DNA from: Hysterium pulicare CBS 123377
Taxonomy: Eukaryota; Ascomycota; Dothideomycetes; Hysteriales; Hysteriaceae
DNA: 64,000 bases
Direction: 5' to 3'
Assembly: GCA_000467715.1 (NCBI GenBank)
Contig: AJFK01000931.1
Coordinates: 62,001-126,000 of the forward strand
Within the stretch, counting starts at the first letter, position 1. Each line of letters opens with the position of its first letter. The translations under genes were made by a program, and so were the position numbers. Under the pieces are notes generated by a model. The model saw only the letters and a program-made list of their open reading frames with translations, ran no database searches and was not told where the DNA came from. Shown here piece after piece: positions 891 to 52,717 of this stretch.

Positions 891-3316
891 ATGGAAGCTT
901 TGCAGGATCGCTCGATGGAGCATGTGTGAGTTCTTCCTTCCTTCCTTGCTTGCTTTCTTTCTTTTTTTTGTATCATCATAGCTAACTCACAATTCTAAAG
1001 CAACAGTGGCGCCACTGCCAAAGTCTCCAATGTCAACTCCAGTCGGAGTGACGAGACCGAGCTGCCAGCCAATGCATACCACCACCCAGAGCTGTTCGCA
1101 AAAGCTGTCGAGTTCGTCAATAATGTCAAAGTACGTCTTACTAGTCACTACTTAATTAAAGCAAGCCCGCACTAACTGTCGAAGGCTCGTTTCGGAGACA
1201 ACTCCAAGCAAGATGCAGACTGCCACGCCCTTCTTATGGAATGGCGGGATCAGAAGCTATCTAATGAGCAGCTACACTGGCAGATGGTCAAGCTATTTCA
1301 AGATCAAGATGATCTGCGCGAAGGCTTTGAGAGTTTCTACTATGCGACTGTCAAAAAGGCTCACTCAACCTCGCCAACGCTCCCCCGGACTCCAATGACT
1401 GCAACATCTAGCTCTCCGACAATCATTCATCCACCTCCTGTCCCAATGCAAGTACCTTTCAGTCCTAACTTTCGATCTCTGTGGCCTGCGGGCGGGGCGA
1501 CATCGAACTCTTCCATTTATAATCAGATGCGCGATGTAGCATTTGGCCATTCGAGTGCACTCACTGCCAATTCTGTGTCTTCTATGTACCAAAGCGACCT
1601 TGCAAGCACATACTACAGGCCACCACTTCCACTCACGCCTTTCATACCTTATCCAAATCAGAACCAATCACCGCCGGCGGAAATGAAAGCACCTGCTCTT
1701 TCGCCTTTCATGATCGAGAGATCTTCACAGCAACAGATCGGCGCACACCATCCCATCCGGCCAAATGTAGGCGAAACAAGACCGTTCACAGTAATTGTAA
1801 TAAATCTTGAGTCAAGTGCTACCGCTGCATATATCCAATGGCTCATGGGACCAATCTTGGGCTACAGGTTCGTTACGTCGGATCCCGTAATGATAGAGGT
1901 GGACTTTGCGGAGCAAACTCTCGCAGAGGCTGCAATTGCTACTTTCCACAACAAGCAGGTACGTGGGGCTCATCATGTCCCTTTATTTTTTTTGGAACGT
2001 ACTAATTGAAGTTCTTTCTAATGACCAGATTGGTGGAAGAGTGCTCTCTGTCTATATGAAAACTCTTCCTATCCAAGCCTCGCCTACCGTCAATCCGTTC
2101 AAACCACCGTCGCCCGCCGTATTTCGCCCCCCGAAACGTTCAAGGTTGGTATCCGATGTATCTCTAGCCAGACCTGATATCAAGGCCGAGAGGGTTCCCA
2201 CTCCGACTTTAACAGAGGCCATGTCAAAATTCAAAGTCAGAGGCACCGGTCCATTTGTCCATGCTATTTGCGGTCAACATTTCAGTTCCAGAGATTCAGT
2301 CAAAAAGCACCACTTCGGTCGTAATACCAAGCCTGGGGATCAACAAGGTTCTGGGTGTTGGTACAAGCGTGGAAAACCAGATATCGCATGGTACGTGTAT
2401 CGTTATAAGTGTGTTATGTGAGAAAAAAGATTAATGTAATGCTAGGGACGCGCATCCATCTTGTCGAGCTCACACGGACCAATCGAAGAACTCAGGGACT
2501 ACTCTCCCCACTCCTCGTTCGAGCCGGGTTGCAAGCCTACCTGTTCTTCCGCCGCTCACTGCTGTACCAATCAAATCCAGCCCAAACCTGGTTACTATCC
2601 CAACTCTTACCGATCTGCCAGCTAAAGTGGCATCAATAGTTGCCAGAGGAAGTAGCACACCCATCCCGCTTCCTGAGAATGTTAGAGATTTACAACAGCA
2701 ATCAACGAACGTGCCTAGATTTTCGGGCTCTACTGGCCAGAACAAGCATGCATTCGCAAGTATGCCGCCCGGCTTACTTGCCGCTTCTAAGGAGCACGGT
2801 GGAAGGGCGCCAGTAGTTGAAAACCTAGAAAAACTGGCTGAATCGTTCAAAATACCTGATTCTGATGAGGTAGATCTAGTCGGAGATAAACCGAGCTCGA
2901 AGTTAGCCAAGGACATCTCCGGTTTGGTCTTTCGTGAAAATCACAGCGAGTCCGTTCTGGTGCCGAAGGCCTTGGGACCAAGAGAGGCCGACACAATTAC
3001 TGTAGTTCCGAGGCCCCAGCAACCCCGAATGAGACAAGAGCCAGTGTTGATTACACCCAAAGCACCAACGACAAGTGCATTCCAGACCTCCGGCACAATT
3101 CTTGAAGAATATCGACTTGACTACTCAGCTCCTGAAGCTTCCGCGATGGAAAAATCGAAGCCAAAGCAGCGCAAGCGAGGACGCAATGATGTCGGCAGAA
3201 GGGAGTTAGAAACATTGGAGCCAGAGCCCGAGAAATCGATCATGCATAGCGAAGAAAGCGAATTGTCGAGGGAGCATTTGAGGAAGCTTGGGCTAGGACT
3301 ACGGTCTAGGTACTGA
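891..3316 (+). CDS. fungal protein with RRM-like fold and Cys/His-rich segment
   Basis: Exons 891-925, 1001-1130, 1185-1958, 2029-2390 and 2446-3316 give 723 residues; all four introns are short GT-AG. Residues about 15-115 form a charged helical N-terminal region, followed by a Ser/Pro-rich linker. Residues about 254-325 look like an RNA-recognition motif: a strand around PFTVIVINLE, a helix, then GYRFVTSDPVMIEVDF and a closing strand GGRVLSVYM. Around residues 394-450 there is a C..SRDSVKKHH motif followed by further Cys and His, suggesting an atypical zinc-binding finger split by intron 4. The rest is disordered, and the tail is basic (KPKQRKRGRN), a possible nuclear localisation signal. 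I do not recognise a named family. A nuclear RNA- or DNA-associated role is inferred only from these parts. The start is the first ATG of the frame after the previous gene. Confidence 0.7.
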
Positions 3317-3779
3317 GGTTAGGCCTAGCGGGTGCTTGCAGTCCGGTGGGAAACAGGTATGATGGATGTATGTACATGTACGATGTGGTAATCTGGCATG
3401 GGAGAAAGTAGCTGCTTTCTTCTTTTTCAAATGCGGTATCAAGCTCAAGTCACTGGCGATTGTTCTTGGCGGTAGTGCTGGTTCACGATTCAACGATGTA
3501 TACTAGTCTCCTGCTGTCAGTAAGAATGGCTGTTTCGAACAATCGATGGATCCTGATTGTGACTGGAACGCCACACAAAAACAAGACACGGGGATGTGAA
3601 TATTGGAACTCAACAATTTCATCTCAATAAAGCTTTAGAACAAGGTTCTTCCTTTACATAGATATAATAACAAGAGCCCCAAGTTCCAGTGCAACATTTC
3701 GGGTACAACCCACGTTCTCCGAATCCAGCCCAACTTTGCATCAGATGTGGGTTATAGCCGCTCTCAAATGGACATGACC
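3317..3779. other. convergent 3' intergenic region
   Basis: The 463 bases between two convergent stop codons must hold both transcript ends. One AATAAA is visible on the plus strand at 3626-3631. I see no coding exon or RNA gene here. Confidence 0.6.
3626..3631 (+). terminator. AATAAA poly(A) signal candidate
   Basis: AATAAA lies 310 bases after the stop of the RRM-like gene, within a T-rich then A-rich stretch. Fungal signals are loose, so this is a candidate only. Confidence 0.35.
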
Positions 3780-5570
3780 TCAGTACCTCTCCTCATCCTT
3801 TTCCATCAAGGTCTCAAGCCACTGTGGAGGAACACTGACCTCCTTCTTCCCCCCTCCATACCCCGCAACAATCACATCTTCAGCCTTACTCCACACCATA
3901 ATCCGCCCATAGCCCTTCCCAACCGCCTCAATCCACTCACTCCAGATGCCCGTATCCGTGTCCCGGCTCTCGATCAGAGGCAAGTTTCCCGCTTTCTCGA
4001 GATACAAGATGGTTCTACGGAGGGGCTTCTGCTGTCGATGAATGTTTGCCGTGCTGGGTGAGTAGTTTGGATGCAGGAAGCCCGGGTTCGCAGCGGAAGA
4101 TTCTTGGGATGTGACGTAGATCACATCCGTCGATGAGGACGTTATAGCGGAGGTAGGGAAGGCGAGCGTATGATACGGTCGAACGGCCTCCCCACGAGCA
4201 TCCCCAGCAGCCGATTCGAAAGACGCCGTGTTATCTGTCGACGACGACGAAGGGGACGAAGCACAATGCTCCCTGACGATGAGAAAACTCCACCTCCCCT
4301 CATGGCACGCTCGTCGCCGCTCAGAAGAAGTCAAGTCAAGTAGCTTGCCCAGCCTTCCTTTCTCGGCCTTTCCGTCAAGGAACGTATCGACCTCGCACCA
4401 GCGCATCAGCTGCACGTCTCCCGGCTCGATGCGCAGCAGTTGGCGCGGTGGGTCGGTTTCCAGCGTCCAGAAGGACGCGCAGATGATGGGAGTCTGCTTT
4501 GGCGGCTGGACCCAATACGGTACATGGACATCCTCCTCCGCGCATGTAGCCAAGCGCCCTTGCAGCTGGGCTTGGGTAGCAAATTGGAACCAGGATAGCA
4601 GTGTCTGAGTCAGGTTTTGCGAGAAGCTGAGCGGTCCGTTCCGGACGTTGAAACTGGTGCTCCAGGGGAGCGAACGGCGCTTTTTCGCTGCTGGGGGTTT
4701 GGGGAGATTCTGAGAGGGGCTGGAGACGCTGCTTGTACGGGGGCGCTTGAGAGGGGGTTGGTCGGGGTTACGGTCTTGGGCTTGGGTTTGGCGCTCCTTG
4801 GTTGGGGAGGATACGAGGATGGTTGGGACCGTTACGAAGGAATCGGAGGCGTTGGTTAGGTTGGGGGTGCTGTGGGACTTGTGTCGTAGGGAGAGCGAGA
4901 TTCCGGGGTTCAGTTGAGAGGCCGGAAAGGTAATAGTTTCATCATCGTCGTCTGCTTTTTCTTGTAGTTGTTGAAGAGAGCCGGCGTCGCTATTGGAATA
5001 TTCGTCGTCAGTATCTTCACCCTCAAACTCAACCAGCGTCTCAGTCTCGCTGTCGTCTTCGGGCTCTGAACGTTGGCTTGCCAGAGCTTGAAGCTTTATC
5101 GTCATACCCTCCCTCTTGCTGGTGTCGTCGCTTTCCAGTCCCTCGCCATTTCTCCCATATCGAGCAATAACCCTAGATCCTATTTCTTCGCTATACCTCA
5201 CACTCTCACACCCAGCTCGATCATCCGTCAAAAACCAAGGACCAATTGTCTTACCATACTCCGAGTTCTTCCGTTCCGTGACCCTCCACTGTTCCATTAA
5301 CCTCTCCACACCCTCCGGTAGCACCGGCGGCTGTAGAAACGGCGTCGGCGCCCGCTTATCCACTCCCAAAACACTCTGGAACGCTCTTGATGCCGAAAAG
5401 ATCTTCGGTATCGAAGACCTGACATGCTCATCGTAGCTTCGAGCGTCTAAAGAAGAAGCCCGGCTACGCATTGCGACCGAGCGATTTGGAATGGGGCCCG
5501 GCAGAGGGAGGAGCGAAATGGGAGACGATAGTCCGGGCAGTTTGGATTTGGGATGGGGTGGGAAGGACAT
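3780..5570 (-). CDS. uncharacterised fungal protein, 596 aa
   Basis: A single-exon gene of 596 residues. I do not recognise the family. The first 150 residues contain a Pro-rich start and a fairly ordered segment (VERLMEQWRVTERKNSEYGKTIG..., GPWFLTDDRAG). The middle, residues about 150-300, is disordered and acidic (SEPEDDSETETLVEFEGED, then Ser/Pro/Arg tracts with KKRRS). The C-terminal third looks folded: FSQNLTQTLLSWFQFATQAQLQGRLATCAEEDVHVPYWVQPPK and a run with YLEKAGNLPLIESRDTDTG IWSEWIEAVGKGYGRIMVWSKAEDVIVAGYGG. It ends PPQWLETLMEKDEERY. The gene converges with the RRM-like gene. Function is unknown; long overlaps with other frames are shadows of this gene. Confidence 0.8.
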   Translation of the reverse strand: MSFPPHPKSKLPGLSSPISLLPLPGPIPNRSVAMRSRASSLDARSYDEHVRSSIPKIFSASRAFQSVLGVDKRAPTPFLQPPVLPEGVERLMEQWRVTERKNSEYGKTIGPWFLTDDRAGCESVRYSEEIGSRVIARYGRNGEGLESDDTSKREGMTIKLQALASQRSEPEDDSETETLVEFEGEDTDDEYSNSDAGSLQQLQEKADDDDETITFPASQLNPGISLSLRHKSHSTPNLTNASDSFVTVPTILVSSPTKERQTQAQDRNPDQPPLKRPRTSSVSSPSQNLPKPPAAKKRRSLPWSTSFNVRNGPLSFSQNLTQTLLSWFQFATQAQLQGRLATCAEEDVHVPYWVQPPKQTPIICASFWTLETDPPRQLLRIEPGDVQLMRWCEVDTFLDGKAEKGRLGKLLDLTSSERRRACHEGRWSFLIVREHCASSPSSSSTDNTASFESAAGDARGEAVRPYHTLAFPTSAITSSSTDVIYVTSQESSAANPGFLHPNYSPSTANIHRQQKPLRRTILYLEKAGNLPLIESRDTDTGIWSEWIEAVGKGYGRIMVWSKAEDVIVAGYGGGKKEVSVPPQWLETLMEKDEERY

Positions 5571-5968
5571 GGAGTAGGAAATGAAATCTTACCGTAGAGG
5601 AAGTGAATTTGGCCAAAGGTGAAGTGGTAGCAGGGTGTGACGCGAAAGAGGAGTCGGTGAATACAATTTTGGCGGTGTTGATGAGGTTTAGATGAATATA
5701 AGAGCGATAGGAGATTCAGTTGTTGCGACACAGGACGTTTTAGACGTTATGAGATGTGAACGAGAGAAAGTTGATCGAAAAAGGTGAACCCAAAGTGGTG
5801 GAGAAGGTCCAAGGTTCCGCGTTCACATGCTAGAGTTGGGTTGACTCAGTTTGGTCTTGATTTTAGCTGCCTATCATATTCTTCACCTCACCTTCATTAA
5901 GTCGGATACGCTGACCTTGCATTCATATGCCAAAAGAAATCAAGCCAGTCTTTTTAAACCACCACCCG
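5571..5968. other. tandem intergenic region
   Basis: Lies between the start of the 596-residue gene and the stop of the epimerase gene, both on the minus strand. It should hold the promoter of the former and the terminator of the latter. I see no further gene. Confidence 0.5.
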
Positions 5969-8415: not shown

Positions 8416-11400
8416 TCATTGTCTCTCGTTTGGCCATTCAATCGTCATTCCACCAACTCTCCTAATTTCATACCCTTGCCGCTCGTCTCGTCTTACGGCT
8501 TCTCCCATAATCACAGTAGCCAGCCTAGTGATCACACAGTGAGCATCTATCTCAACTCCGGCTCTTCCCGGCAAGCAATCGCCCATTTGAATTCTCTTCC
8601 CACTGACACTCTCGTACTCTTTGATGTCCTTCAGTTGTAGCAACTGCATGAAGACTGCTGCAATGACAACGTGGCTCTCGCTCATCACGACGCTATATCC
8701 CCAGCTGCTGAGCTTTGCGCCTACATATTTCTGGTAGTTGGGGAATGACTCCAGGAGAGCATTGTTGGTGTTCGGAGGTTTGCTGGGTGCGAAAAGCGAG
8801 GGCTTGTGCTTATATTGTTGGTAAAGGGCATCAAATGCCTTGTAGTGCGTCTTCGTCCAAGGCTCAAAGCGAGGAAGAGGGTCGAATTTGGAAGTAATCG
8901 GATGTGCCGGCGCGGGTTCAGCTGAAGCGAGTGTCCCCCAGATGCTGGATGTGAGGCGTCCAAACAATCCGGGACGGCGAGGTTTCGGATGTTCGACTGA
9001 AGGGTCAACTGCACTGATTGGCCTATGTGCTGCTTCGTGAGGCGACTTTGAGGTTTGGGGTGTATTGTCGCCAAACAGAGGAGGATACACTCGTCTAGGA
9101 GCCAGAACGCTGGTTGCATGTTCTTCGGGTGGTGACGATGGAAGTGCCGTTGTCGTTGATTGATGCTCGGATCGGGATCGCTCAGTGACTTCTTCGATAT
9201 CATGAAGAGTGTGGTTATGCGGTTCATATGCATGTGCCTCAACTTCTTCTCGGAGGTGACGAACTTCGGATGATTCTGTACACGTAGGCACCTCCATCTC
9301 TTGCCGAAGTTGGCGTATATCGGATGTCTCGGTATCATCGATATTGGTACGAAAAGGTGAGCTCTGTGGATATTCAGAGTCGTTCGCACTCTCATCGAAG
9401 ACCTGGTCAGTGTCTGGATCTCTAGTATCGAATTGTTGCCGTAGAGGACTGCTTTTGTATGGAGATGCCTGCAATGCGGGAAATCGGGGAGCGTTCTTGA
9501 AGGGACTTGACTTGTGTGGTGTATGCAAGATGCTGCTATCCTTGATTGGACTATCATTACCTCCGAGAAGCATGGATAGATCCAATTTTTCGCTCTTGAG
9601 TTCCTTACATGTCGAGTTCCTAAAGACAGCTGGGAGGTTTTGCTGCCAGAACATGCCAGTATCATCACTGGCTTCACTGGCGTCATCATCCTCGTCCTCT
9701 TCGATAATCGCAGGCTCTACAAGTCGGTTTTTACCCTTGTCTGCGGATAAAACGGGAGGCCCTTGCAGCAGCTGTTCATGAGCATACCCCTCTGGTTCTG
9801 GTTCTGGTTCTGGTTCTGGCTCTGCTTCATCGCTATAGTTGAAGTCGCTGGCACTCTTCCTACGCCACGTTCTTGGAATCTTGCCACGGGCGGGCTTGGG
9901 AAGGCTGTCGTCGATGGGAAAGAGATCCTGTAGCTGTGGCGACCTTGTAGTTCGTGGATCAGAAGGCAAATCCGATGATCGACTGGCTTCCTCTTGCCAG
10001 ATATCTGAGTAATCTTCCGCCTCTGACTCTTCATCTTCGATTACAACAACCTGACTCTGGTCTGCATTTTCAATTTGAAGGCTCACAGCTTGCCTTTCGC
10101 GCTGAACTTCTGCATCAAGATTACGATGACTGCTTTCTACTTGTGGTGTGCTCTGTTGCCTGACTGGAGGCGTGTCAACTTGCCAACTCATTTCGCCGTC
10201 ACTCCTGGCAGGGCTAACGAGTTGAGTCTGCTGCATGCGCAAGTTCAAAGATGGATACGCAACATCGGTATCCTGAACGGGAGGGGGCGGTGCAAGCGCA
10301 TAGTCATCCTGCTCTTCTGGAGTGAGAAGGCGAGAATATTGAGAACCCTTTCTTCGTTTCTGATCAGGAGGCACGGAAAAGGGGTCATCCTTCGGTGAAC
10401 TGTTCGCTTTTGAGGAGCCTGGCAAAGCTGGCGAAGACTCTTTGCTCGCTTGTCGACTCTTAGATTGCCTTGACAATTGCTCGCCGAGTCTTAATCCAGC
10501 ACGCAGCTCTCTCCTAGTGCCGTCACTGAATCCTCGGAAGAGATCTTCTAGGGGATCCTTTTGCTCTTTCGAAGCCTCTTGCCCAGGTTGTCCAGCTGGC
10601 GTAACTCTTATAGTATCGAGGACTCCCTGAAGAGCGATGCCGGTCTTGACAACCCCTGCAAGCTTGGGAGTTGATGTTTTGGGTGGATACATTTTTGCGA
10701 CTTCTATTGCTGGTGGGGCTGATGGAGACTTCGAATCCATGGCAGGCGTTCGCTGTCTCTTCGGGGGAGAGGAAGTGATGTTCGATGGGGTCGGACTAAT
10801 TGAGGATGGTGGCCCAGATTCGTTCAAAGGATTACGAGAGTTCTGGTAAGACTGGCTCGAGGATGGATGCAGGAAGCCGTTCTGGGGGTTCATACTTTTC
10901 CTGGCCGCTGAATCGGCTGTAGCAGATGGTTGATTCAGCGGGCTACTAAGAGCCTGCCTGCTCGGCAGAGATTCTATAGAGATCATACTGAAATTTTCGC
11001 TCTCGAGGATTGTGGTGCCGTCGACCATGGTGTTCCCCTCCCCTGGAAGAGAGTCATCCTCTTCATCATAGAAGAGAGCAGTGTCCCCAACTTCTGTTCC
11101 TGCTTGAGCCTTGGTAGCCTCCTGTGTAGTGGTATGCAACAAGCCCACTAGTTCATCGTACGTAGGTTCATCACTATCCTCATCAGATCCAGACGGAGTG
11201 TATGGGGCGGCACCTCTAGGTTTAGCTGGTGTTGGTGCCCTGTCACGAAGACTCCGAGCATTCCCTAGCCTCCGCGGCGTATCCTCTGATAAGGGACCCT
11301 GAGTCAGTACCACTCGTTCATGAGAAGAGGAAATTTTCGATGGCTCTAAGACAGGTGTCTCTGTGCTTGCAGCATCATCAATCGTAGCAATCGGCTGATC

Positions 11401-12081
11401 AGTCCTCTGCTCTGGCTCTGTGTGCTCCAACGCTCCATCCTCAAGTGAAGCCTCAACCAAGACCTCTGCCGGCTGTATGCTCTTTCTTGGTCGCCCTCGT
11501 GGTCTCTTCGGTGGAAGTTCCCCATTATCGATAGACATATCAACAATGCTCGCGTCTGTGGCTCCAACGCTAGATTTTCTTGACCTCCTCCGAACAGGTG
11601 TTCCACTTCGCTTGGCCTTCGCTGCAGTCGGCCCATCTGATTTCCTAGGCCGTCCCCTCCGTTTGATTGGAGAAGACGCGTCGGGGTCCTTTAATGGGAC
11701 TGTCGTGGTTGTTGTTCGCAGTATGCGGTTCCGGGTTGGCGATCCATGCCCAACGCCCTCTTCATCTGAAGCACCACTTCCTGGCTCCGCCTCCACTGTA
11801 ACCTTGATTCTCCAAGGGCTTGCGCCACCAGTCCGGCCTGTGTTCATGACCATAGATTTCGCGGGAGAAGAAAAGTCGAGCGTATGTGCGGTTATGTCTG
11901 GCTCTCGTGGTTGGAGATTCGCTGAGCTTGGAGTTAACGGTCCTTTGCGAGTCCGCTTTGCCTTTCCGCGCGTCTTGTTTTCGTTGTAGGAAAGCGCCAA
12001 CGGGTCTGGTGATGATTCTGGGTAGTTGCTGCTGTTGGTGGCATCCTCGTCGGAAAAGGTCGGTCGGTTACTGAACGCCAT
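8416..12081 (-). CDS. large AT-hook DNA-binding protein
   Basis: Single exon, 1221 residues. Two AT-hooks are visible near the N-terminus, KRRGRPRKS at about 140-148 and KRPRGRPRKS at about 192-201; these bind the minor groove of AT-rich DNA. A conserved-looking SPWRIKVTVEAEP motif at about 88-100 precedes them. Most of the middle is disordered, rich in Ser, Pro and acidic residues, with an EP dipeptide repeat. The last 200 residues look folded: GLFGRLTSSIWGTLAS, FEPWTKTHYKAFDALYQQYK, then helices around SESHVVIAAVFMQLLQL and DAHCVITRLATVIMGEAVRR. It is transcribed away from the resolvase gene across a 233-base shared promoter. A nuclear chromatin role is inferred from the AT-hooks; no specific function is known to me. 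Confidence 0.85.
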   Translation of the reverse strand: MAFSNRPTFSDEDATNSSNYPESSPDPLALSYNENKTRGKAKRTRKGPLTPSSANLQPREPDITAHTLDFSSPAKSMVMNTGRTGGASPWRIKVTVEAEPGSGASDEEGVGHGSPTRNRILRTTTTTVPLKDPDASSPIKRRGRPRKSDGPTAAKAKRSGTPVRRRSRKSSVGATDASIVDMSIDNGELPPKRPRGRPRKSIQPAEVLVEASLEDGALEHTEPEQRTDQPIATIDDAASTETPVLEPSKISSSHERVVLTQGPLSEDTPRRLGNARSLRDRAPTPAKPRGAAPYTPSGSDEDSDEPTYDELVGLLHTTTQEATKAQAGTEVGDTALFYDEEDDSLPGEGNTMVDGTTILESENFSMISIESLPSRQALSSPLNQPSATADSAARKSMNPQNGFLHPSSSQSYQNSRNPLNESGPPSSISPTPSNITSSPPKRQRTPAMDSKSPSAPPAIEVAKMYPPKTSTPKLAGVVKTGIALQGVLDTIRVTPAGQPGQEASKEQKDPLEDLFRGFSDGTRRELRAGLRLGEQLSRQSKSRQASKESSPALPGSSKANSSPKDDPFSVPPDQKRRKGSQYSRLLTPEEQDDYALAPPPPVQDTDVAYPSLNLRMQQTQLVSPARSDGEMSWQVDTPPVRQQSTPQVESSHRNLDAEVQRERQAVSLQIENADQSQVVVIEDEESEAEDYSDIWQEEASRSSDLPSDPRTTRSPQLQDLFPIDDSLPKPARGKIPRTWRRKSASDFNYSDEAEPEPEPEPEPEGYAHEQLLQGPPVLSADKGKNRLVEPAIIEEDEDDDASEASDDTGMFWQQNLPAVFRNSTCKELKSEKLDLSMLLGGNDSPIKDSSILHTPHKSSPFKNAPRFPALQASPYKSSPLRQQFDTRDPDTDQVFDESANDSEYPQSSPFRTNIDDTETSDIRQLRQEMEVPTCTESSEVRHLREEVEAHAYEPHNHTLHDIEEVTERSRSEHQSTTTALPSSPPEEHATSVLAPRRVYPPLFGDNTPQTSKSPHEAAHRPISAVDPSVEHPKPRRPGLFGRLTSSIWGTLASAEPAPAHPITSKFDPLPRFEPWTKTHYKAFDALYQQYKHKPSLFAPSKPPNTNNALLESFPNYQKYVGAKLSSWGYSVVMSESHVVIAAVFMQLLQLKDIKEYESVSGKRIQMGDCLPGRAGVEIDAHCVITRLATVIMGEAVRRDERQGYEIRRVGGMTIEWPNERQ
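9791..9825. repeat. hexanucleotide microsatellite inside coding sequence
   Basis: About five near-perfect copies of GGTTCT encode the EPEPEPEPEPE tract of the AT-hook protein on the minus strand. The hexamer unit keeps the frame, so copy-number changes would only lengthen or shorten the tract. Confidence 0.8.
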
Positions 12082-12314: not shown

Positions 12315-15219
12315 ATGGGCATCCAAGGGTAACATCTCCTCCAAATAGCATGGAGTTAAAGGGCTAACAAGTGCAGAATCTACAAAGAAATTGGTCCAGG
12401 GGAAAGAATCGCCCTCTGTAAACTTGCAGTCCAGAAGTTCGAAGAGACCGGACGACCGTTTCGCATTGCTATAGATACATCAATATGGCTTTTTCAAATC
12501 CAAGCTAGTAAAGGTAGTAATTGCACCTCCGTATTCCAAAGGAATTGGAGGCTCACATTCCATTTTCTTTGATCTAGGAGGGTCCAATCCAGCACTCCGA
12601 ACCTTTTTCTACAGGCTGCTACGCCTGATCTCGCTCTCTATACATCCAATCTTTGTATTTGACGGACCCAATAAACCCCCTTTCAAGCGAAATAAACGGA
12701 CAGGACCAAATGTTGCCTCAATACCGGAATTCCTTGCTAAACAGCTTTTAAAACAATTCGGCTTTCCCATACATCTTGCGCCTGGTGAAGCAGAAGCAGA
12801 ATGTGCACTGCTTCAGAAAGAGGGCATAGTAGATGCTGTCCTCAGTGAAGATGTTGACACTCTCATGTTTGGAAGTGGCATCACTCTGCGTAATTGGTCA
12901 CCGCAGGCGAAGTCCACTACTAAGACGCCGACGCATGTGAACCTTTACGATGCTGTCAAGACCAAAATAGGGTCCTCTGGGCTCGATCGCGACGGGATGA
13001 TTCTAGTCGCTATGATGAGCGGGGGAGATTATGTCCCCGAAGGCATTTCGGGATGTGGACCCAAAACAGCTTGCGAGGCTGCGAGAGCGGGTTTCGGGAG
13101 AGATCTTTGCAAGATAGCTAAGGGTGATGCAAAGGCTATAAGGGACTGGAAAGAAAGGCTGACGCATGAGCTAAAGACCAACGAGAGCAAATTCTTCAAG
13201 AGAAAACATGGCGCGCTTGTTATTCCGGAAGAGTTTCCTAGATCCGATATTCTGGGATACTATACGCAGCCGGCCACTTCGTCCAAGGCTGCGCTCGATA
13301 AGCTCAAACGCTCTATTAAATGGGATCAAGATCTGGATTTCTCGGGTTTGCGAGACTTCACTGGGGATGCCTTTGATTGGACGAAGTTAGGGGGTGCAAA
13401 GCATTTTGTTCGGAACTTGTCGCCAGCCTTGCTGGTTCGTCACCTTCGGATGAGAGGAGAAAGAGATGCATCAGATGATGTAGAGGTTACACAAAAAGAA
13501 GAAGCAAGACTGGTCAAGAGTATCCATGGAAAGAGGAATCATCCCGACACTGATGAATCTACTGAACTACGAGTGGCTTTCACACCGATTGAACTTGTAA
13601 ATCTGGACCTGGATAAAGAAGAGCCAGACGAAGAGATGCCTGGATATGGTTCAGATGATGAGATGCCTATCGATGGCGAGGTTGATGCTATCAATGTTCC
13701 AAGGAAGCGAAGTCCTACAAATTACGATCCTTTCAAACCACAGAGAGTCTGGGTCATGGAGACTTTCCTACGAGTCGGTGTCCCACTCAAAATCCAGGAT
13801 TGGGAGGAAGCCATCCGTAACCCAAAGAAGTCCTTGGCCCCAAAGCATGCAAATAAGGCTCATACAAGCAAGGCTGCTGCTAATCCCAAACCAACACGAA
13901 CAAAGAAGATGAAGGAATCATCCAGCATGCCTAACGGCGCAATTAATCGTTTTGCTAAGGTGATGAAACCTGGGGTCAAGCGATCCCAGACTTCAGTAAA
14001 ACCCCATGATCAAAACGGCGAGACGTTATCCCCTAGTCGGAACACGAATACACTTCCACCTTCCTCAAATCATACAGCGAATTTGGTGAGCCCGAGAGTG
14101 TCGAGGCAGCAGACCGTTATCGAGCTTTTTTCGTCACCGGCTAAGGAGCCTAATGCTCCAGCATGTCCACCGGCAGCCAGATCGCTATCCGCTGTTACAG
14201 AAGAAGTACCATCAAATGTCGCAAAAAGGCGACGCCGTAGTCCCATCCAGCGCTCACGTACCCTTCCAGCGGAGACTTGCATATCTCACATTCGGCTCCA
14301 TACCCCTCCACTTTCGTCTACGATCGAAATGTTGGACCTGGTTGATTCACCACGACTGCCATCTAAGATGTCAAAAGGGACATATATAAGCCAGGAGCCC
14401 TCTCCCCACAGTGGAAATGCGCAGCATACCATGAAGAAGAACTCCTCAACTGCATTTACTTCAGAAGCAGGCCGAGGGAAACAGACAACCTTGGATAGCT
14501 GGGCTAGTCCTTCTGGCGTAAGGAGGACTGATCCTACCTCCTTTGCTGAATGCATTGGGACTTCTCCATCCCTCCAGCTTTTTCGTAACGAGCCAGAACT
14601 ACTCGATCTAAGCCTTTCATCTCCCGTTCAACCCATATTTCACTCAACTCAAACGTGCGCCCAACCGTCCGTATTCTCAAGATTTAGTCCGCCGCATGAG
14701 AAAAGTACGCAGCCTCGCCCACCTCTACGATCCATTTCTTCCAACGGATCTAGATCATCCACAGAGTCCAGATTCTCCAACCCTTCTTCACACCGTCGAA
14801 AGGATCCGCCGATTTCAACAGCAGCGACGTTGGAAATAGAGACCTTGGATCTAACGGCACCATCTCGCGCAGCTACACCCTCCCCAACACAGTTAAAAAC
14901 TTCAACAGCGCAATCCCAAACCTCCCTGAGTACCTGTTCCTCCTCACCGTATACCGCTCTTCGTCGCTCACCCCGTAACCACGCATCGCCATCTCGAGCG
15001 AACTCGAAATCCCCACCAGCGCCTTGGAAGCTCCAGCAGACGAAGAAACGCGCTATAGTCCTAAGGAAAAGTCTTGCCGGCGCATGGAATTTCACGGATA
15101 TCGAGACTTTGGGTGTGGAGAGTGCGCCTGCAACGACGAGAAAGAACAAAATGAAGAGGGAGAAGGAGAGGGGGAGGTGGAGGGAAAGCGAAGTTGAGGT
15201 TTTGGATTTAGTCGATTAG
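12315..15219 (+). CDS. GEN1/Yen1-type Holliday-junction resolvase (XPG/Rad2 family)
   Basis: Exons 12315-12328, 12377-12513 and 12578-15219 give 930 residues. The tiny first exon encodes MGIQ(G), joined to GIYKEIGPGERIALCKL, as in fungal GEN1/Yen1 proteins. XPG-N: D38 (AIDTSIW) and D79 (FDGPNKPPFKR). XPG-I: E121 and E123 (PGEAEAECALL), D142 and D144 (LSEDVDTLMFG). D201 in SGGDYVPEG opens the helix-hairpin region (ISGCGPKTA). All catalytic acidic residues are present. A basic segment follows, then about 550 disordered residues with Ser-Pro sites typical of Cdk regulation and two Gln-led motifs (QQTVIELF, KQTTLDSW) vaguely like PCNA-binding boxes. The enzyme cuts four-way DNA junctions symmetrically during recombination repair in the nucleus. 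A promoter X-box and MBF-like site suggest damage or cell-cycle control. Confidence 0.92.
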
Positions 15220-15758: not shown

Positions 15759-18700
15759 CTAGTACGGAGTGTAGCTGGCGTACCCGGAGCCTTGGTTAGG
15801 CGTCCCTCCATACGCCATCTCCTGAAACCCAGCAGGCACTTGCCATCCATGGACATTGCAAGAACGTATATAAGCCTCTACTGCTTCGCCAACGCCGTAG
15901 TCAACGCGTGCACTGTTGTCGAGACGAGCGGGTTTAGGGTCGAGGGAAGACATTGCCATGCGGACCTGGAGGAGCACCGACTCGATGGAGGAAACGGCGG
16001 ACCAGCCATTGTTTGTTAGGAGCTATGATTTGGTTAGTTGATAAGTTGCGAAGAGATCAAAAGAAACATGAGAAGGTTGGTTATGCTTACCTCCATGCAC
16101 AAAGCGCCACCAGCGGTGACATGTCCACCACCACCCTGCTGAAAGCCCAAGAAGCGTGGACGAATGACTCGGACAAAAGGTGGGCTCATTGGATAGTCTT
16201 TTCCGAATCGCATCTCCATCACAATGCTCTTATAACCCTTCGCCTTCATGTCCTTGGCTAAGGGCAAGGTTGAATCAAAGGAATGTAGCTCCATAATCCA
16301 CTGATACATGTTCGTGATCCTTTCTGGATCAATGTACCAACCAAGTTCGTGTAACGGCTCAGACTTCTGGACTTTCAGCAACGCCCTGAAATCTTGTTGG
16401 AGGCGTTTCGTGGCGGAAATCGTTGCCCAGGCAGGTGGCTCAAGCATTGGTAAGGTAGAATAATCCAATGTACCAGGCTCAAAGTCAGTCATTGGTTTGG
16501 ATGATTTGGAGCTCTTCGACCCAAGACCGAATTTCGAGAAGATTCCTCCTGTTGCTTTTTCTTTACCCTTGCCGGTACTGGTTGGAATTGGTTCCAGTTC
16601 AAGTTGCGATTGAGGAATATCCTCGTCTTGGAAAATTGCTAGGTCCTCGTCTAACGTAGCAACACTCGCAGTATCATCCTCTTCAGCATCCAAATCAATA
16701 GCATCATACATACTTTTTCCAGATGCCTTCTGCCTCTTGTTGTTCGCCTTGAGTGAGATGGATTGCGGTCGACGTGAACCCTTTGCTGCATGAACAGGAA
16801 TGATGATCTTGTCATTTTGACCCCTTGGCGTCATATTTGGGTCCTGCTCAAGCGCCTGAAGGGGTTTGGTGTCCTTAGAGGCTGTCGTCGGAAGGTTTGT
16901 TACATTGCCCTTAACAAATAGATACCGTGTCTGAATCCAGTCTAAGTGCTGTACTACCAAATGCGGGCTCTGGTTGACGTATTCCTTAGGAGCATTGACG
17001 ATTTCGTTCAGCGCCAAAGCAGAGTTCACCTTAAGTTCACTCTGAGGCCAGTAGCCCACTGCAGGACCATACCCGCAATAGCCCATACTAGTATTGTACT
17101 CGAGGGAATGATACACACCATGTCCATAAGCGCGGCCATGAGCGGTATCTCTGAAATGGAGTCCTTCGCGGATGATACTATGCCAGTTGTGTAAAGGACT
17201 GCCGTGCCAGGCGAAAAGGGTTGGATATTTCAGTTTCAATCGCTCTGAAGTACTCCGAACGGAGCCGATAAAACGTCGCTCTTTGTCCGGGGCACCCATA
17301 GCGAATCTGAACTGCATCCAACCAGACATGCCATAGAGTCGTTCCTCACCCTTCTTTCCCTTGATATCTGACTCTCCTTCGTCATCGACCTGGACGATAC
17401 AAGCCCGATTAGAGGCGATGATCCATCGCAAAATACCCAAAGCGGCCGGAGAGATACGTTCAACCCAGGAATTCAACCCCGACTGTGCTTTCCGGGAGAG
17501 GAATTGTTTCATTTCAGCCACGCTTGGGAGCAGATCCAACAGGGCGTATATCGTCTGCCGCTTATAGTGTTCGTGCAGGTCATCGAAGTTCTGATTATAA
17601 ATATAGAATGTTGCTGGAATGAACTGGGATGGTGTCGGAGGGGCTTTGACAGGCGCATTCACATAGTTTTGGCCACCAGGCTGAGAAGCGTATTGCTGAA
17701 CATCATAGAATGCTGTTGGAACAGGTTCTGACACTTTAACTGTGGGAAAGAAAGTTGTATCTGCAACTCGACAGTGCTGAGGCTTGGCCGAATTCGCAGG
17801 TGAGCGAATGATCACCCAATCCCCATTCCTGAAGGGGCATTTCTGATTTGGATCATCAAATATCATCTCCAACGTTGATGCGTTGAATCGCGTCTTTCCT
17901 TGTTCCGCCGATGCAGTTATTGTTGGCGATGGCGTGGGCGGAGCCACATAAGGCGAAGCAGCGTAAACTGGATAAGGCTGCTGAGGTTGATTGGCATAGT
18001 CACTTTCAAAGGCAGCCGATGGAGGAACCATCAAACTCAAGCCCGTCGGAAAGTCTTTTAGGGAGCTTTGCCGTGCAGTAACATAACAGAAGCTGATGAG
18101 AAGATCGACGACTCTGGGTTGCGCAAGGATCTCGTGCTCTATGCTAGGTCCAAAGCCAAGAGACATGTACTGATAGAGACATAGGGGCTTATCGCAGACA
18201 TAAGGCTTGATGGCCTGAAGGTCGTCGGGCATTTTGCAAAAGCAAATCAGACAGAATTCCGTGCAGCGCACAAAGTGTCGAAGTACAAATTGCATGCCAA
18301 TGATCGGAAATGAGTGAGTTTGGTGAGATTCTGAAATGTGGTCGGCGGTGACTACGTTAGAGAATGCCCTGTTGACCATCTCGGGTTCCATGTATTTGTC
18401 GTTCATCAAATCAGAATTCTCGATGTTTGTTCCATAATGGTCATTATAGTACTGCTCAGCTCCAGCCCATGGCATACCCATGAATCTGTATTCGATCAAG
18501 GTCACCAGTCGCTCGTTCAGTAGTTCGTTCAGAGGCCTTGAGATGAACGAGTTCCTGAAACCTCGGTTGGGTTGGTCCTGGGACTCATTTTGAGATTCCG
18601 CTCGCTGCTTCTCCTCTTCTTTTGATAGAGTCGTGAATGCGCGAACTGCTTCCTGCATAGTGGGCTTGTAGGTGTGACTGATCCCAATACGCATGCCAAT

Positions 18701-19529
18701 CTGGCGTCGAGCTGTTTGGGCATCATAGCTTGTCAGAGACTCCATTGACTTGTACCCGTTAGGATAGTTGAAGATGACAATCAGGTATTCCGTGGGTTCC
18801 ACCTGCCAGGCTTGCATAGCTTCTTCTGAAATGCCAAGCTTCGATATCCGGCATGACAAGCTCACGTAACATCCGAATCCATCCATCAAACCGCCAAGAT
18901 GCCCAACTTTGAATCCTGCGGCTTTGGCTTCCATCAGATCCGATCGGATACGTGACCGGAAAACAGACGTAGGCTGCGTGAATCCCTCTGGAGAGGCACC
19001 GTCCACCTTTCCAAAGATAGGCTTGGGAACAATGTCATCATCAGGAAAGTACTCATCTGCAGATCCGTCATCGTCGTCATCATCATCTTCATCGACGGGC
19101 GAATCGGAATCTTCTTGCGAGTCAAGCATTTGCGTGTCGCCATCGCGGTCAGTAGACTCTAACTTGCGGGCAACGAGTTCAAGTAGCTGGGTGACATTTT
19201 TGCCCATAGCAGAGTCGGAAAGACCTGAAAGAGCTGCCGCAATGTTCGACGGTGCATCATCGGGAGCAAAGAGCATGCATGTGTGGCTCGAAGGATACTC
19301 CGACACGTCTAATGATCTAATTAGCGGAGTTTCTGGGCGAGATAGCATAGCAAGATGATTACTTACCAGGTATTAAGGCTGAGATTTGTAGTGTCCCGCC
19401 ACTTGTGGCACTCTTCACGCGAAAGGTGAACTCCCCGTCGTCACCTCCAGTCTGAACATCAGATATTCCGGCAATTGCAACACCCTCAATTGCCTTTGAG
19501 AGGTCGGCTACAAAGGCCTTCCTCGGCAT
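15759..19529 (-). CDS. PARP catalytic domain fused to UBE2Q-like ubiquitin-conjugating domain
   Basis: Exons 19529-19367, 19308-16091 and 16022-15759 give 1214 residues (MPRKAFVAD start; an in-frame ATG at 19550 would add seven). An acidic, disordered stretch follows the N-terminal segment. PARP signature: LFAWHGSPLHNWHSIIREGL with the NAD-binding His near residue 756, then HGVYHSLEYNTSMGYCGYG. The usual third catalytic Glu seems replaced (SPHLVVQHLDW), as in mono-ADP-ribosyl transferases. Residues about 1030-1200 form a UBC fold of the UBE2Q kind, with GGHVTAGGALCME-LLTNNGWS carrying the catalytic Cys; the last intron falls just after CME. The order PARP then E2 is recurrent in fungi. It probably ADP-ribosylates and/or ubiquitinates targets, maybe linked; substrates are unknown. 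It converges with the resolvase gene. Confidence 0.9.
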
Positions 19530-20480: not shown

Positions 20481-21527
20481 ATGGCTATATCTTCTCCCAA
20501 GGGACCTGTGGCTGGAAGCTCTAGTCACGTCGCCGACCCTACCCTTCGTCCTTTTCTGCAACCTACATTTGACCCTGCGGAGTACCTCAATGCCGCCTTG
20601 CCCTCACTTGCGCTATCGACGGCTTCCTCCAGACCTACTAAACAAGCCACTGCCGTCTCATTAGGAGACCTTTCTTCTCAGACTCAGGACCTTCTATCGC
20701 AGCTCAACGCTCATACCACACGTCTATCGACCGTTCTTACCCAATTGACCGATGATATATTGCGAAGTGGAGGTCGCCTGGCTTATGAAGTCGAGGTTTT
20801 GCGGGGAGAAACGCTAGGCTTGACAGACACTCTAACAGATGGCCTGCGTTCCGATGTCGGGAAGTTTCTGTCCGGAGGTATATCACTAGAGGCGAAAGAG
20901 GCTGAAGATGTCAGCGAGAGTCTCGTGGTGCCAGAAGAACACCAGCCTGGCAAAGTCGGACCAGAGACGACCGGGTTGCCAAAGACTGAGACCGATCCGA
21001 GCATACCACCGTACATCTCACACCTACGAACCATGACCCTCGTACGATCCCGACTCGAAAGTGTCATAAAGGTGTTTGGAGATGCTATGCAATGGACTCT
21101 GCCTCCCTCCGAGGTCTCCTTAGCTTCTTCCTTGATCTCAGTCTCTGCTCCAGAACCAGGTTCGGACAGTCACAGTCGTGAAGAGAAAAGTCGCCAGTTT
21201 GCAGACAATCTCCGCAACGAGATTTCAGAACTCATCACTGGCATTAATGGCGAAGAACCTAGCTTCGAAACTGCCATGAGTCGGATACAGGCGCTTCGAG
21301 ACCTCGCCCAGGTTTGGAAAGGCACAGCCGAAGAAAAGGCACGAATCAAGTTCGTGGAGAGTCTTGTAAGATTAGCGGAAGATAAACAGAAGGCTTCAGC
21401 TACTGCGGCGAATCAGAGACAGCGGGATGGTCGGGGTGGAAGCTCCCAAAAACCGCAGGGGAAGGAAAAGAGTCATGGCTTCCTTGATAATCTTCAGAGG
21501 ATGCGTGGCAATATCTATCTCGAATGA
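20481..21527 (+). CDS. conserved oligomeric Golgi complex subunit 7-like
   Basis: Single exon, 348 residues. After about 20 residues comes FDPAEYLNAALPSL, matching the FDVKEWINAA start motif of Cog7. Long amphipathic helices follow (SLGDLSSQTQDLLSQLNAHTTRLSTVLTQLTDD..., then HLRTMTLVRSRLESVIKVFGDAMQW), typical of COG tether subunits. The C-terminal helix region (FADNLRNEISELITGING) and a Lys/Gly-rich tail end the protein. COG tethers retrograde vesicles at the Golgi; Cog7 belongs to the Cog5-8 lobe. The protein is about half the length of animal Cog7, which I believe is usual in filamentous fungi. Confidence is moderate because the call rests on the N-terminal motif plus helix layout. Confidence 0.65.
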   Translation: MAISSPKGPVAGSSSHVADPTLRPFLQPTFDPAEYLNAALPSLALSTASSRPTKQATAVSLGDLSSQTQDLLSQLNAHTTRLSTVLTQLTDDILRSGGRLAYEVEVLRGETLGLTDTLTDGLRSDVGKFLSGGISLEAKEAEDVSESLVVPEEHQPGKVGPETTGLPKTETDPSIPPYISHLRTMTLVRSRLESVIKVFGDAMQWTLPPSEVSLASSLISVSAPEPGSDSHSREEKSRQFADNLRNEISELITGINGEEPSFETAMSRIQALRDLAQVWKGTAEEKARIKFVESLVRLAEDKQKASATAANQRQRDGRGGSSQKPQGKEKSHGFLDNLQRMRGNIYLE

Positions 21528-22284: not shown

Positions 22285-23925
22285 CTAACTCTCCTCGTTT
22301 ATATGAACTCCAGTTGGAAGTGCGAACACCTGACTATCCTCTTCATTTCCGCAGTTCCTAGTCCCGTTCCCTTCAGTCAAGCAGTATCCAGATTCCTGGT
22401 TTATCAGGTTCCCGCTAACCCCATAAACCCATCGTTGAGACTGGCTCTTATCGCTACAGCGGGTAAGGCTTAGCTTGGAGTCTTTGGCTGTCAAGCACTT
22501 ATTTGACTCTGATAGAGGACTGATGAGTCCGGTTGTGTTGTATCCCTGCCACACTTGCGAGTCGGTCCCTGCACAGCCTGAGAAAGCTACGGAGGATGAA
22601 GTTCCTGTCAAACAGTTCAGTGAGAAGGTGTTGAAGATCATGCCAGTTGGAGTAACGTCCATATGGGAATCGTGGCTTGGGTAGATGCGGAAAATTGCGG
22701 TTGCATGCGATTTGATTTTCTTCAGGCGAACCGAGCTTCCAACAGACTCTGTGGTGTTGGTCCATAAGTCTCTTGCCTTGTAAGATCCACTGGGATCTAA
22801 ACCGACTCGCTCAAGGGCAATCTCGGTGCTATTGGTATAATTGCCTCGGTTCAAAACAGTCAGCAAGCGGTCGCCGTTTGCGAGGTTTTTGGTAAGTATG
22901 TCCCAGTATCCGTCCTGAGATACGAGCGTTGCTTGTTGACACAGCCCATCTTGGTCAACCGCCAGGATGTCTTTGTTGGTCAAGTACGCCACCTCTTCAT
23001 CCGTCAAATCGGGGATATAGGAGCTGATGATCAGAGGTGCGGAGAAGGACGACCACAGCGCAAAATGCGACCTCTTTTCATCGATCGTAAGATCGGGGAA
23101 ATCGACAATCAGAAAGTCCGGGTCGTTGTAGAATCCGCATTTCTGGTAACGTGATAATCGCACCTCCATTCCATAATTATTCATGATGCTCTCCCAATGG
23201 CCCCCGGGTTCCCACACACCCTCAGTGCCGTATACCTTGACGTCATCCGAATGCCTTGCAAGTTCTCCGTTTTTGGGAACCCACGACATAGATCGATACC
23301 AATCGGTGTTGTTCTGATCAAGGTGGAAATTTGGCGAAAAATATGCTGGCGCCGATTCGGAGAAAGCCATTGGCCGGGATAAGTTGCTCAGGATCTTGTG
23401 CCACTTAGTGTACAGCGATTCAAATTGATCATAATATGACCGTCCCTTTAAATCGATGTGGCATCCATCGAGCTTCAAATAGTCGACACCCCAAGATTCG
23501 AATGTTGCCGCATCCTGTTCCTCGTGGTCTTGAGATCCTGGATACCAACCGCAAGTCATATTTCCTGCGTCCTCATAGATTCCAAACTTGAAGCCCTTCT
23601 TATGAAAATAATCGCCAAGCCAGATCAATCCATCTGGAAAAAGGGTCGTATTCCACTGTAGAGAGCCGTTCGGTGCACGAGAACGCTGGAGCCAACAATC
23701 GTCTAGGTTGATGCGGTTGTATCCTGCAGCAAGAAGACCTTTGGAAACCATTGCGTCTGCAGTCTTGGTGAATAGAGATTGATTGAGTGCACATTCGAAC
23801 CGAGCCCAATTGTTGAAACCCATTGGGGGCGTTGGTGATAGGCTTGGGTCTTCTATCGTAGCAGATACATGGCTGAAGTGCGCCGTGAAAGCGCTAAACA
23901 GCATCAATAATAAGAGCGCCATCAT
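22285..23925 (-). CDS. secreted GH27 alpha-galactosidase with ricin-B-type lectin domain
   Basis: Single exon. I start at 23925 (MMALLLLMLFSAFTAHFSHVSA), a clear signal peptide directly before the GH27 start PTPPMGFNNWARFEC; the frame stays open for 92 codons further upstream, but that stretch has no homology. The product is 546 residues. GH27 landmarks: NRINLDDCW, GIYEDAG, YLKLDGCH with the nucleophile Asp at about 153, and RHSDDVKVYG with the acid/base Asp at about 228. A C-terminal beta-sandwich follows, then a trefoil lectin segment (about 425-546) with a QXW motif in SQSQRWVYG and paired Cys. It releases terminal alpha-galactose from galactomannan or raffinose-type sugars outside the cell. 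Two XlnR-like boxes lie upstream. Confidence 0.92.
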   Translation of the reverse strand: MMALLLLMLFSAFTAHFSHVSATIEDPSLSPTPPMGFNNWARFECALNQSLFTKTADAMVSKGLLAAGYNRINLDDCWLQRSRAPNGSLQWNTTLFPDGLIWLGDYFHKKGFKFGIYEDAGNMTCGWYPGSQDHEEQDAATFESWGVDYLKLDGCHIDLKGRSYYDQFESLYTKWHKILSNLSRPMAFSESAPAYFSPNFHLDQNNTDWYRSMSWVPKNGELARHSDDVKVYGTEGVWEPGGHWESIMNNYGMEVRLSRYQKCGFYNDPDFLIVDFPDLTIDEKRSHFALWSSFSAPLIISSYIPDLTDEEVAYLTNKDILAVDQDGLCQQATLVSQDGYWDILTKNLANGDRLLTVLNRGNYTNSTEIALERVGLDPSGSYKARDLWTNTTESVGSSVRLKKIKSHATAIFRIYPSHDSHMDVTPTGMIFNTFSLNCLTGTSSSVAFSGCAGTDSQVWQGYNTTGLISPLSESNKCLTAKDSKLSLTRCSDKSQSQRWVYGVSGNLINQESGYCLTEGNGTRNCGNEEDSQVFALPTGVHINEES

Positions 23926-24234
23926 GACTGCACCGTATACCAAAATGCAGATTGTGAGGCCGATCGTGTCTGTACAACGGAGGGAATCTAGACCAGTATT
24001 ACGGAATAAGACTCTCAAGGTTTCGAATTTTAGAGCTGTGCAAACGCCATTGACTGTAGCAGGGGGGCTCAGCGGAAAAAGTCTTGGGGAGCAAAGGCCA
24101 TAAGTGATACGTGACACGAAAGAAGAAAGATACTCTGTACAGATATATACCCCACCCAGGTTGAGCCATGGATCTGCAAACTTCGCCAGGTACATGGACA
24201 TTGGACTTCAAGGGACGATCAGATTTTAGCCGGA

Positions 24235-39182: not shown

Positions 39183-39493
39183 TATATAGGAAGAGGCACT
39201 ATTAGATGAGACCCTTGCTGGTGGTGTAGGTGATGCGCTGGCGATGGAGTTGTGGTGAGCTGTGGTTGAACTGACACCGAAGAAGGCAATAAAAGTTGCC
39301 AAGTGAAGGTGGCTGAAATTATCTATGGAACTACTAGTGGCTAACGGATCCCTACCCCCTCCCTTGCCAAAAATAGTTATGTATGCTCGTGCTAGCTATC
39401 TCGTGCAACACCACAATCAACAACACTCCCTTTCTCTCCCACCAACACGCCTGCAAATCCACCCAGGCAGGCGTTGCCATCTCCCTTTCGGCC
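39183..39493. promoter_or_regulatory. divergent promoter, Ntr1-like / large disordered protein
   Basis: 311 bases between the two preferred start codons. Both reading frames extend into it, but the extensions have no conserved content. No specific site was recognised. Confidence 0.5.
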
Positions 39494-49528: not shown

Positions 49529-49890
49529 AGGTGGGATCTCAGGATGTTCGAAGCGATGCTACGGCAGAGTTACACGGCAAAGTCGAAATGTGTGGAGATA
49601 TGGAGGTCACTCGGGGCATCCTCGAGAGTGAAGGTACAGGAAAGAGACTCATGTGTGATGACAGAGCAACTCTTTGGGAGAAAGTTGCAGAAGTGGCAGC
49701 AAGTCAATGTGGGGTGACACTGCGATACCACAGCCACAGATCAGCCACAGCAAAGATAGTAAACGGAGAGCTCGGGAGGTGGAGCTTTGGGCACATCGTA
49801 GCAATGACGTCTTGCGACAACTTCTTCATAAACACCTCAGCGACCTATCCATTCATCCATTCATCCAATTGACCCTACGATCCTCGCATC
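49529..49890. promoter_or_regulatory. divergent promoter, siderophore acyltransferase / SOD2
   Basis: 362 bases between the two starts. No perfect SreA-type ATCWGATAA was seen; one AGATAG (near 49755) fits only the loose GATA core. Both genes relate to iron and oxidative stress. Confidence 0.5.
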
Positions 49891-50761: not shown

Positions 50762-51237
50762 ATGATAACATCGGAGTGTACATTCACTAGCGACAGAAGA
50801 GGAGTCTCGGTTGTACCTAACAAGATTGGCAAATAAATCCTCGAGATGTACCCTATTAAACCGGCATACACGTCTCTCCTAGACGGATGTCTCTCTTTTA
50901 AATTTGGGATTGCCGTTGCTATCACCTCAGTCCCTCAGACTTATCTAGAAATAGCTCTCGCAATTTGCCATGAACTTGACGATAGCATTTCTCCACCCAC
51001 CGTGCACCGTAACGAGTGCGCTGTCCGAGTCCATTCAAAAAATATGCTCGGTAATCTTGGGTATAGTCCATCAGCCTAGTCGGCTCGCTCACAGGATAGC
51101 GCGGTAGCCTGCCGACCGAGAACTCCGCCTCGTACTCAATCCATGCATCGTGCACTCATGTGCTTAGACCAAATGAGTCTTCCAGGAAATGGGCACAATA
51201 GATAGCTTTCAGAATGTGTCTCATCCTTTTTGTCTTA
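50762..51237. other. convergent 3' intergenic region
   Basis: 476 bases between the SOD2 and GPI8 stops. An AATAAA for SOD2 lies at 50832-50837. Nothing else was recognised. Confidence 0.5.
50832..50837 (+). terminator. AATAAA poly(A) signal of SOD2
   Basis: Lies 71 bases after the SOD2 stop on the same strand, a usual distance for a fungal 3' UTR. Confidence 0.5.
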
Positions 51238-52460: not shown

Positions 52461-52717
52461 GTTGGAAGCAGACAGATTGGCGTTGATACTTTTACAGGTA
52501 ATGCAACATCTCATGCGAGGACGTTTGAGGGCATATGAGGATTAAGAGACATAGGTTGGTACACGAGTACAGCGCCGATCGTAGGGAGTAGAGAGCTTAC
52601 CAAGCATATCGCGGAAAAACATTGTTGCGGAAATAGTATATCACGTCAGTAGCATTTCCTCGATGCCGACCTCGGGATGATCCTATTGCCTCGCCCACTC
52701 CATTTTTATAGCATATC

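Follow-up and report, generated by a model that had tools for sequence, protein, structure and literature searches.

A 64,000-nucleotide stretch of the Hysterium pulicare CBS 123377 genome (contig AJFK01000931.1, positions 62,001 to 126,000; hereafter, the window) carries on its minus strand, at 15759–19529, a gene whose predicted product joins a PARP catalytic domain to a ubiquitin-conjugating enzyme (E2) domain of the UBE2Q type. The gene model has three exons joined in frame and a spliced product of 1214 residues, and the modelled coding sequence fills the interval exactly, with the ATG at 19529 and the stop codon ending at 15759 (Table 1). Judged by eye, each intron begins with a GTAAG donor, contains a branch-like CTAAT/CTAAC sequence and ends in a TAG acceptor. 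An initial annotation of the window had described one frame joining a PARP core (WHGS, GVYHSLEY) to a UBE2Q-like UBC domain with its active-site Cys in GGALCME. In our model these motifs start at residues 755, 785 and 1121, the PARP core and the E2 as far as its active-site Cys lie in the uninterrupted exon 2, Pfam and PDB matches support both domains, and Cys1125 aligns with Cys351 of UBE2Q1, so that both statements hold.

Exon 2 stays open for 1072 codons, whereas no run exceeded 222 codons when its bases were shuffled 200 times, and the PARP–E2 frame is therefore not a product of chance. The gene is predicted from its DNA sequence, and two genes or transcripts might in principle have been misread as one; however, the codons of the linker between PARP and E2 score best in the gene's frame (−4.02 each, against values from −4.21 down to −4.35 in the remaining five), and an identical domain order has been published for fungal proteins (PMC2964712, PMC4245714). 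Because exon 2 continues without a break from the PARP core into the E2, we rejected this artefact as hardly credible, and we regard the predicted single-chain fusion of a PARP to a UBE2Q-type E2 as confirmed in the window.

Domains and active sites of the predicted protein

A Pfam-A scan of the 1214-residue protein recognised PARP at residues 753–799 (E = 1.5e-8, 34.8 bits, cut-off 26.7) and UQ_con at residues 1084–1157 (E = 1.9e-7, 31.2 bits, cut-off 27), and no further convincing Pfam-A domain. When the whole protein was searched against solved structures, the E2 part matched 1zuo (E = 2e-18; labelled "hypothetical protein" in this search and presumably UBE2Q2) and UBE2Q1 (2qgx, E = 1.6e-16), and the nearest solved PARP was PARP16 (4f0d, E = 9e-4). 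With the E2 half as the only query, 1zuo and 2qgx reached 1.6e-19 and 1e-17 and the next E2 followed far behind (3.3e-5); judged from its sequence, the E2 half is of the UBE2Q type, closest to UBE2Q among solved E2s.

In the PARP half, His756, Gly757, Tyr787, Ser795 and Tyr798 are present, at what we take to be the NAD+-holding positions of PARPs. The segment Tyr787–Cys799 aligns with PARP2 without gaps, a hit that is weak when taken alone (E = 0.028), and a two-sequence profile built with one paralogue from the same genome reached PARP2 at E = 1.8e-6 and PARP16 at E = 7.7e-6. The third position of the catalytic triad, presumably that of Glu988 in PARP1, lies beyond the HMMER alignments and was read from the motif RYLFV as Tyr850; we assume that PARP16 likewise has a Tyr at this place. 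A paralogue from the same genome has RY where Tyr850 aligns, in a stretch that an earlier, longer alignment of the pair had placed out of register. At the motif level, the final Glu of the triad thus appears to be lost and replaced by Tyr850, which predicts a mono-ADP-ribosyltransferase, and Citarelli et al. argue likewise for mono-ADP-ribosylation in Clade 6 (PMC2964712).

The E2 half lacks the canonical His-Pro-Asn (HPN) motif; it reads GGHVTAGGALC, and an alignment to 2aak sets His1117 at the place of the HPN Asn. In the alignment to 2qgx, chain residues 98, 106 and 164 pair with His1117, Cys1125 and His1185. An offset of 245 turns them into UBE2Q1 Tyr343, Cys351 and His409, and since these are the residue numbers used in PMC10971424, the register is consistent.

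Ahead of the PARP domain lies a C4 zinc motif of the form CX2CX9-19CX4C (residues 407–431), which none of 2000 shuffles of the protein contained and which Perina et al. described as a cysteine-rich region of PARP6/8 homologues (PMC4245714). For the N-terminal ~370 residues, neither the Pfam-A nor the PDB search returned an RWD or other convincing match.

Table 1 Features of the PARP–E2 gene, in window coordinates
Feature	Position	Strand	Details	Basis
Whole gene, PARP–UBE2Q-type E2	15759..19529	-	Order: N-terminal region (FPE/RWD-like by position), C4 zinc, PARP, linker, E2	Gene model, Pfam
Exon 1	19367..19529	-	Residues 1-54 and first base of codon 55	Gene model
Intron 1	19309..19366	-	58 nt, GTAAGT...TAG	Gene model
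Exon 2	16091..19308	-	Zinc motif, PARP, linker, E2 as far as the catalytic Cys; one open frame	Gene model
Intron 2	16023..16090	-	68 nt, GTAAGC...TAG; splits E2 two codons past Cys1125	Gene model
Exon 3	15759..16022	-	C-terminal part of E2 (His1185, Trp1187), tail, stop codon	Gene model
N-terminal region	18362..19529	-	Residues 1 to about 370, including an acidic stretch; place of the published FPE (RWD-like) domain	Position only
C4 zinc motif	18179..18253	-	CX2CX15CX4C, residues 407-431; PARP6/8-type cysteine-rich region	Motif scan
PARP catalytic region	16892..17539	-	About residues 645-860	Outer borders inferred
Pfam PARP match	17075..17215	-	Residues 753-799, with His756, Tyr787, Ser795, Tyr798	Pfam
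Tyr850	16922..16924	-	In RYLFV, read as third triad position	Motif reading, beyond HMMER alignments
Linker	16445..16891	-	About residues 861-1009, without domain match	Codon usage in frame
UBE2Q-type UBC domain	15843..16423	-	Residues 1017-1187, interrupted by intron 2	Pfam and PDB matches
His1117	16121..16123	-	Place of UBE2Q1 Tyr343 and of the canonical HPN Asn	Alignments to 2qgx, 2aak
Cys1125	16097..16099	-	Catalytic; UBE2Q1 Cys351	Alignment to 2qgx
His1185	15849..15851	-	UBE2Q1 His409	Alignment to 2qgx
Trp1187	15843..15845	-	Probable equivalent of UBE2Q1 Trp414; follows the His by two residues rather than five	Sequence, outside alignment

Known relatives and genomic setting

In 2010, Citarelli et al. 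already described this architecture as Clade 6A of the fungal PARPs: FPE–PARP–UBCc proteins, most with an N-terminal RWD-like FPE domain, with a PfamB_2311 region right before the PARP domain and with an active Cys in the UBCc domain (PMC2964712). The same authors mention, as an unpublished result, that one Clade 6A gene of a dimorphic fungus is expressed in hyphae only. The window protein has the PARP domain followed by a C-terminal UBCc in one chain, a catalytic Cys in the latter (Cys1125) and, as in PARP6/8-type proteins, the zinc motif ahead of PARP. It shares with the Clade 6A proteins the domain order, a triad apparently without Glu, the Cys and a long N-terminal region; no difference was found in this comparison, which concerned architecture only. 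On that basis we class it as Clade 6A-type: it almost certainly combines an ADP-ribosyltransferase of the PARP6/8 type, including the C4 zinc motif, with a UBE2Q-type E2, and as such is a further example of a known architecture. Perina et al. reported a UBCc domain in PARP6/8 homologues from Ascomycota and Basidiomycota as well as from a moss and a green alga (PMC4245714), which suggests that the PARP–UBCc pairing has been retained or has recurred in evolution. The initial annotation had pointed to fungal precedents without assigned function, as borne out by these two papers, and to a triad apparently lacking its final Glu, suggesting mono-ADP-ribosylation, which Tyr850 supports at the motif level. 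Its interpretation is supported in part: it stands for the fusion, the apparent Glu loss and the precedents, but it had overlooked the zinc motif and the name Clade 6A.

Other known proteins resemble parts of the chain. Human PARP6/8 and other eukaryotic homologues have the same C4 zinc motif ahead of PARP, a triad without Glu and E2-related domains nearby (PMC4245714, PMC10450202), but the human proteins differ in having split RWD domains and, in the relevant sections of PMC10450202, are described without a catalytic E2 domain. UBE2Q1 and UBE2Q2 provide the best sequence match for the E2 half, with a closely similar stretch around GGALCMELLT and no HPN, but are not fused to a PARP, have Tyr343 in place of His1117 and a longer His–Trp spacing; the RWD domain that they carry far upstream in the chain (PMC10971424) has a counterpart in the window protein by position only. 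PARP16, the best solved match for the PARP core, is anchored in the endoplasmic reticulum by a transmembrane helix and is described without E2 or C4 zinc finger in the same sections of PMC10450202. A 2024 survey places fungal UBE2Q-type catalytic domains mainly in Ascomycota and Basidiomycota and, in its relevant parts, makes no mention of a PARP fusion (PMC11354881); the consulted sections of PMC8883491 likewise hold nothing on the fusion, and a 2025 review calls the E2-like folds of PARP6/8 "enigmatic", with roles yet to be described (PMC12687431).

Scans for relatives of the fusion confirmed none of 593 pattern matches on genome contigs and none of 600 in one scan of viral contigs, while two further viral scans gave no match. 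In the H. pulicare assembly (37.2 Mb, 596 contigs), PARP (PF00644) has three matches: the window gene and one gene each on contigs C180 and C208. The C180 gene (L036:861-4787) encodes 1308 residues in one exon, with a CX2CX9-19CX4C motif at 1009 and a sub-threshold match to ARTD15_N, the N-terminal domain of PARP16. The C208 gene (L037, about 3257-5685, minus strand) consists of two frames, apparently cut by an intron, and has a zinc motif near this form, with CX3C at its end; it adjoins a frame that by eye resembles an acyl-CoA ligase. The C180 and C208 proteins are 36.6% identical over 134 residues (E = 1.6e-23), and the window protein is less like them (E = 5e-6 and 9e-4).

PF00179 (UQ_con) gave 35 matches in the assembly. 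The window E2 was not among them, probably because intron 2 splits it, and this search alone cannot rule out other intron-cut E2s. A direct search with the fused E2 recovered the window gene in two exons plus two weak matches (E = 0.003 and 0.027), both at PF00179 sites, and found no second close UBE2Q-type E2 in the assembly. The WGR domain marks PARP1-type enzymes; no match over the cut-off was found in the assembly, one falling below it (18.2 of 22 bits, contig C572), with matches in 2 of 14 control genomes. Macrodomains (four matches), a PARG-like protein (one) and ADP-ribosyl hydrolases (two, one with two internal stops) were detected. The PARG-like match stands beside the lack of a WGR match over the cut-off, that is, a poly-ADP-ribose eraser without an evident PARP1-type writer. 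Two of the macrodomain matches lie less than 2 kb apart on one strand (contig C402 118238-120220; L006, L007), perhaps as tandem genes or one double-macrodomain gene. The Deltex domain DTC had no match in the assembly, but this search was silent in the controls as well and hence is uninformative.

A possible hybrid ADP-ribose/ubiquitin mark

Judging from its residues, the protein probably transfers ADP-ribose in single units with its PARP half; its E2 half, once charged by the ubiquitin-activating enzyme (E1) at Cys1125, probably favours non-lysine acceptors. Ser, Thr, glycerol and glucose accept ubiquitin from both UBE2Q1 and UBE2Q2, and maltoheptaose accepts it from UBE2Q1, whereas both enzymes were weakly active on Lys in an E2 screen (PMC10971424); ester-linked ubiquitin on protein-bound mono-ADP-ribose has been reported in human cells (PMC12000418). 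Because one chain would hold both a mono-ADP-ribosyltransferase and a hydroxyl-preferring E2, production of the hybrid product by this protein alone, as the initial annotation had suggested, is conceivable. The PARP half would first attach ADP-ribose to a target or to the fusion protein itself, the tethered E2 would then join ubiquitin to one of the hydroxyls of this ADP-ribose, and the zinc and N-terminal regions would select the partner or target. In this way, one chain would make the product that in animals is attributed to PARPs together with Deltex ubiquitin ligases (E3s).

That the two halves act in sequence as such a writer is plausible, and we put it forward tentatively. The best explanation overall combines the Clade 6A identity, the chemistry above and sequential writing of the hybrid mark, and we give it a probability of roughly 40%. 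In its support, the PARP active-site set is retained, Cys1125 and His1185 align with Cys351 and His409 of UBE2Q1, the fused E2 is the only close UBE2Q-type E2 found, and the assembly has macrodomain, PARG-like and ADP-ribosyl-hydrolase matches. A bolder version, in which the protein writes the mark alone without a separate E3, the PARP half adding ADP-ribose and the UBE2Q-type half esterifying ubiquitin onto it, is doubtful; such a mark would be older than, or separate from, the Deltex route of animals, and it would occur in a genome in whose assembly no PARP1-type enzyme is seen.

Several observations weigh against a hybrid writer. Attachment of ubiquitin to ADP-ribose is ascribed to Deltex E3s working with UBE2D, not UBE2Q, and although this route (MARUbylation) would have the same product as the mechanism proposed here, it uses separate proteins (PMC13270118). 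A linker of ~150 residues separates PARP and E2, and nothing forces the two sites together. Single-sequence structure predictions were uninformative (mean pLDDT, the predicted local distance difference test, of 31.8 for the 1072 residues of exon 2 and 31.6 for the 226-residue PARP region). No E2 match was found on the C180 and C208 PARP genes, either with the fused E2 as query or with UQ_con, a search that also misses the intron-cut E2 of the window gene itself. Among the papers listed in our literature search, largely without subscription papers, none was recognised as giving an enzyme activity or function for Clade 6A. Finally, the UBE2Q1 set of Tyr343, His409 and Trp414 is incompletely matched, with His1117 in place of the Tyr, His1185 aligned and a probable Trp1187 at shorter spacing. 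In UBE2Q1, Tyr343 is required for discharge on its peptide, with Phe tolerated: Tyr343Phe still discharges, while the other changes tested at the three positions fail on the peptide with ubiquitin loading intact (PMC10971424). Given this incomplete set, we do not assign the UBE2Q1 mechanism of hydroxyl discharge to the E2 half, and similar chemistry is offered as a proposal.

The absence of HPN and the replacement of Tyr343 would also suit a protein in which one half is catalytically dead and acts as a scaffold for binding, a role that RWD domains without catalysis may have, and human PARP6/8 are predicted to have E2-related RWD folds, typically without the Cys (PMC10450202). However, the window protein keeps Cys1125 as well as the His/Tyr/Ser/Tyr set of its PARP half, and an active Cys is reported in Clade 6A proteins by Citarelli et al. 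(PMC2964712), so that we consider a dead half improbable.

A stronger competitor of the hybrid writer, and about as likely, is that both marks are placed on one target without being joined: the PARP half would mark or bind the target, and the E2 would ubiquitylate its Lys, Ser or Thr. This possibility, which we hold as tentatively as sequential writing, is in line with the direct ubiquitylation of a protein peptide by UBE2Q1 and with the proposal that RWD domains recognise substrates (PMC10971424). It exploits nothing of the fusion except proximity, however, and its substrate is yet to be named.

The active sites might instead act in cis, one modifying and switching the other half (for example, through ADP-ribosylation of the E2 or of its bound ubiquitin), with only one of them acting on outside targets. 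Auto-modification is common among PARPs. A loose connection of UBE2Q to ADP-ribose comes from a bacterial effector that binds both ADP-ribose and UBE2Q1 (PMC8699189). No sequence feature points specifically to such regulation, though, and we find it unlikely.

The 2024 report of hydroxyl and sugar ubiquitylation by UBE2Q and the 2025 report of ubiquitin on protein-bound ADP-ribose in cells turn a long-published fusion, for which our search gave no function, into a testable case. If both reactions were coupled, the protein would be a one-chain writer of the hybrid mark, and this could explain the E2-related folds on the human PARP6/8 branch. The H. pulicare genome offers a fairly clean setting, with three PARP-domain matches, no WGR over the cut-off and the fused protein as the only close UBE2Q-type E2 that our search found. 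The idea of a hybrid mark is reasonable and directly testable now.

Neighbourhood of the gene

The window holds 17 frames of at least 280 residues, and ten of them besides the fusion were scanned with Pfam at E 0.001; ordinary cellular families account for six of these, and the other four have no match at this threshold. The frame at 20481-21527 gave only a sub-threshold COG5_N match, and the long open frames at 8419-12081 and 39383-42697 (1221 and 1105 residues) have no Pfam match at E 0.001. Convergent with the PARP–E2 gene, a plus-strand frame at 12865-15219 carries the C-terminal domain of GEN1, a Holliday junction resolvase, and the minus-strand frame at 22285-24201 encodes an alpha-galactosidase with a C-terminal ricin-type lectin domain. 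Farther along, at 48044-54851, a GNAT acetyltransferase (Acetyltransf_8) and an OPT transporter frame lie ~4 kb apart.

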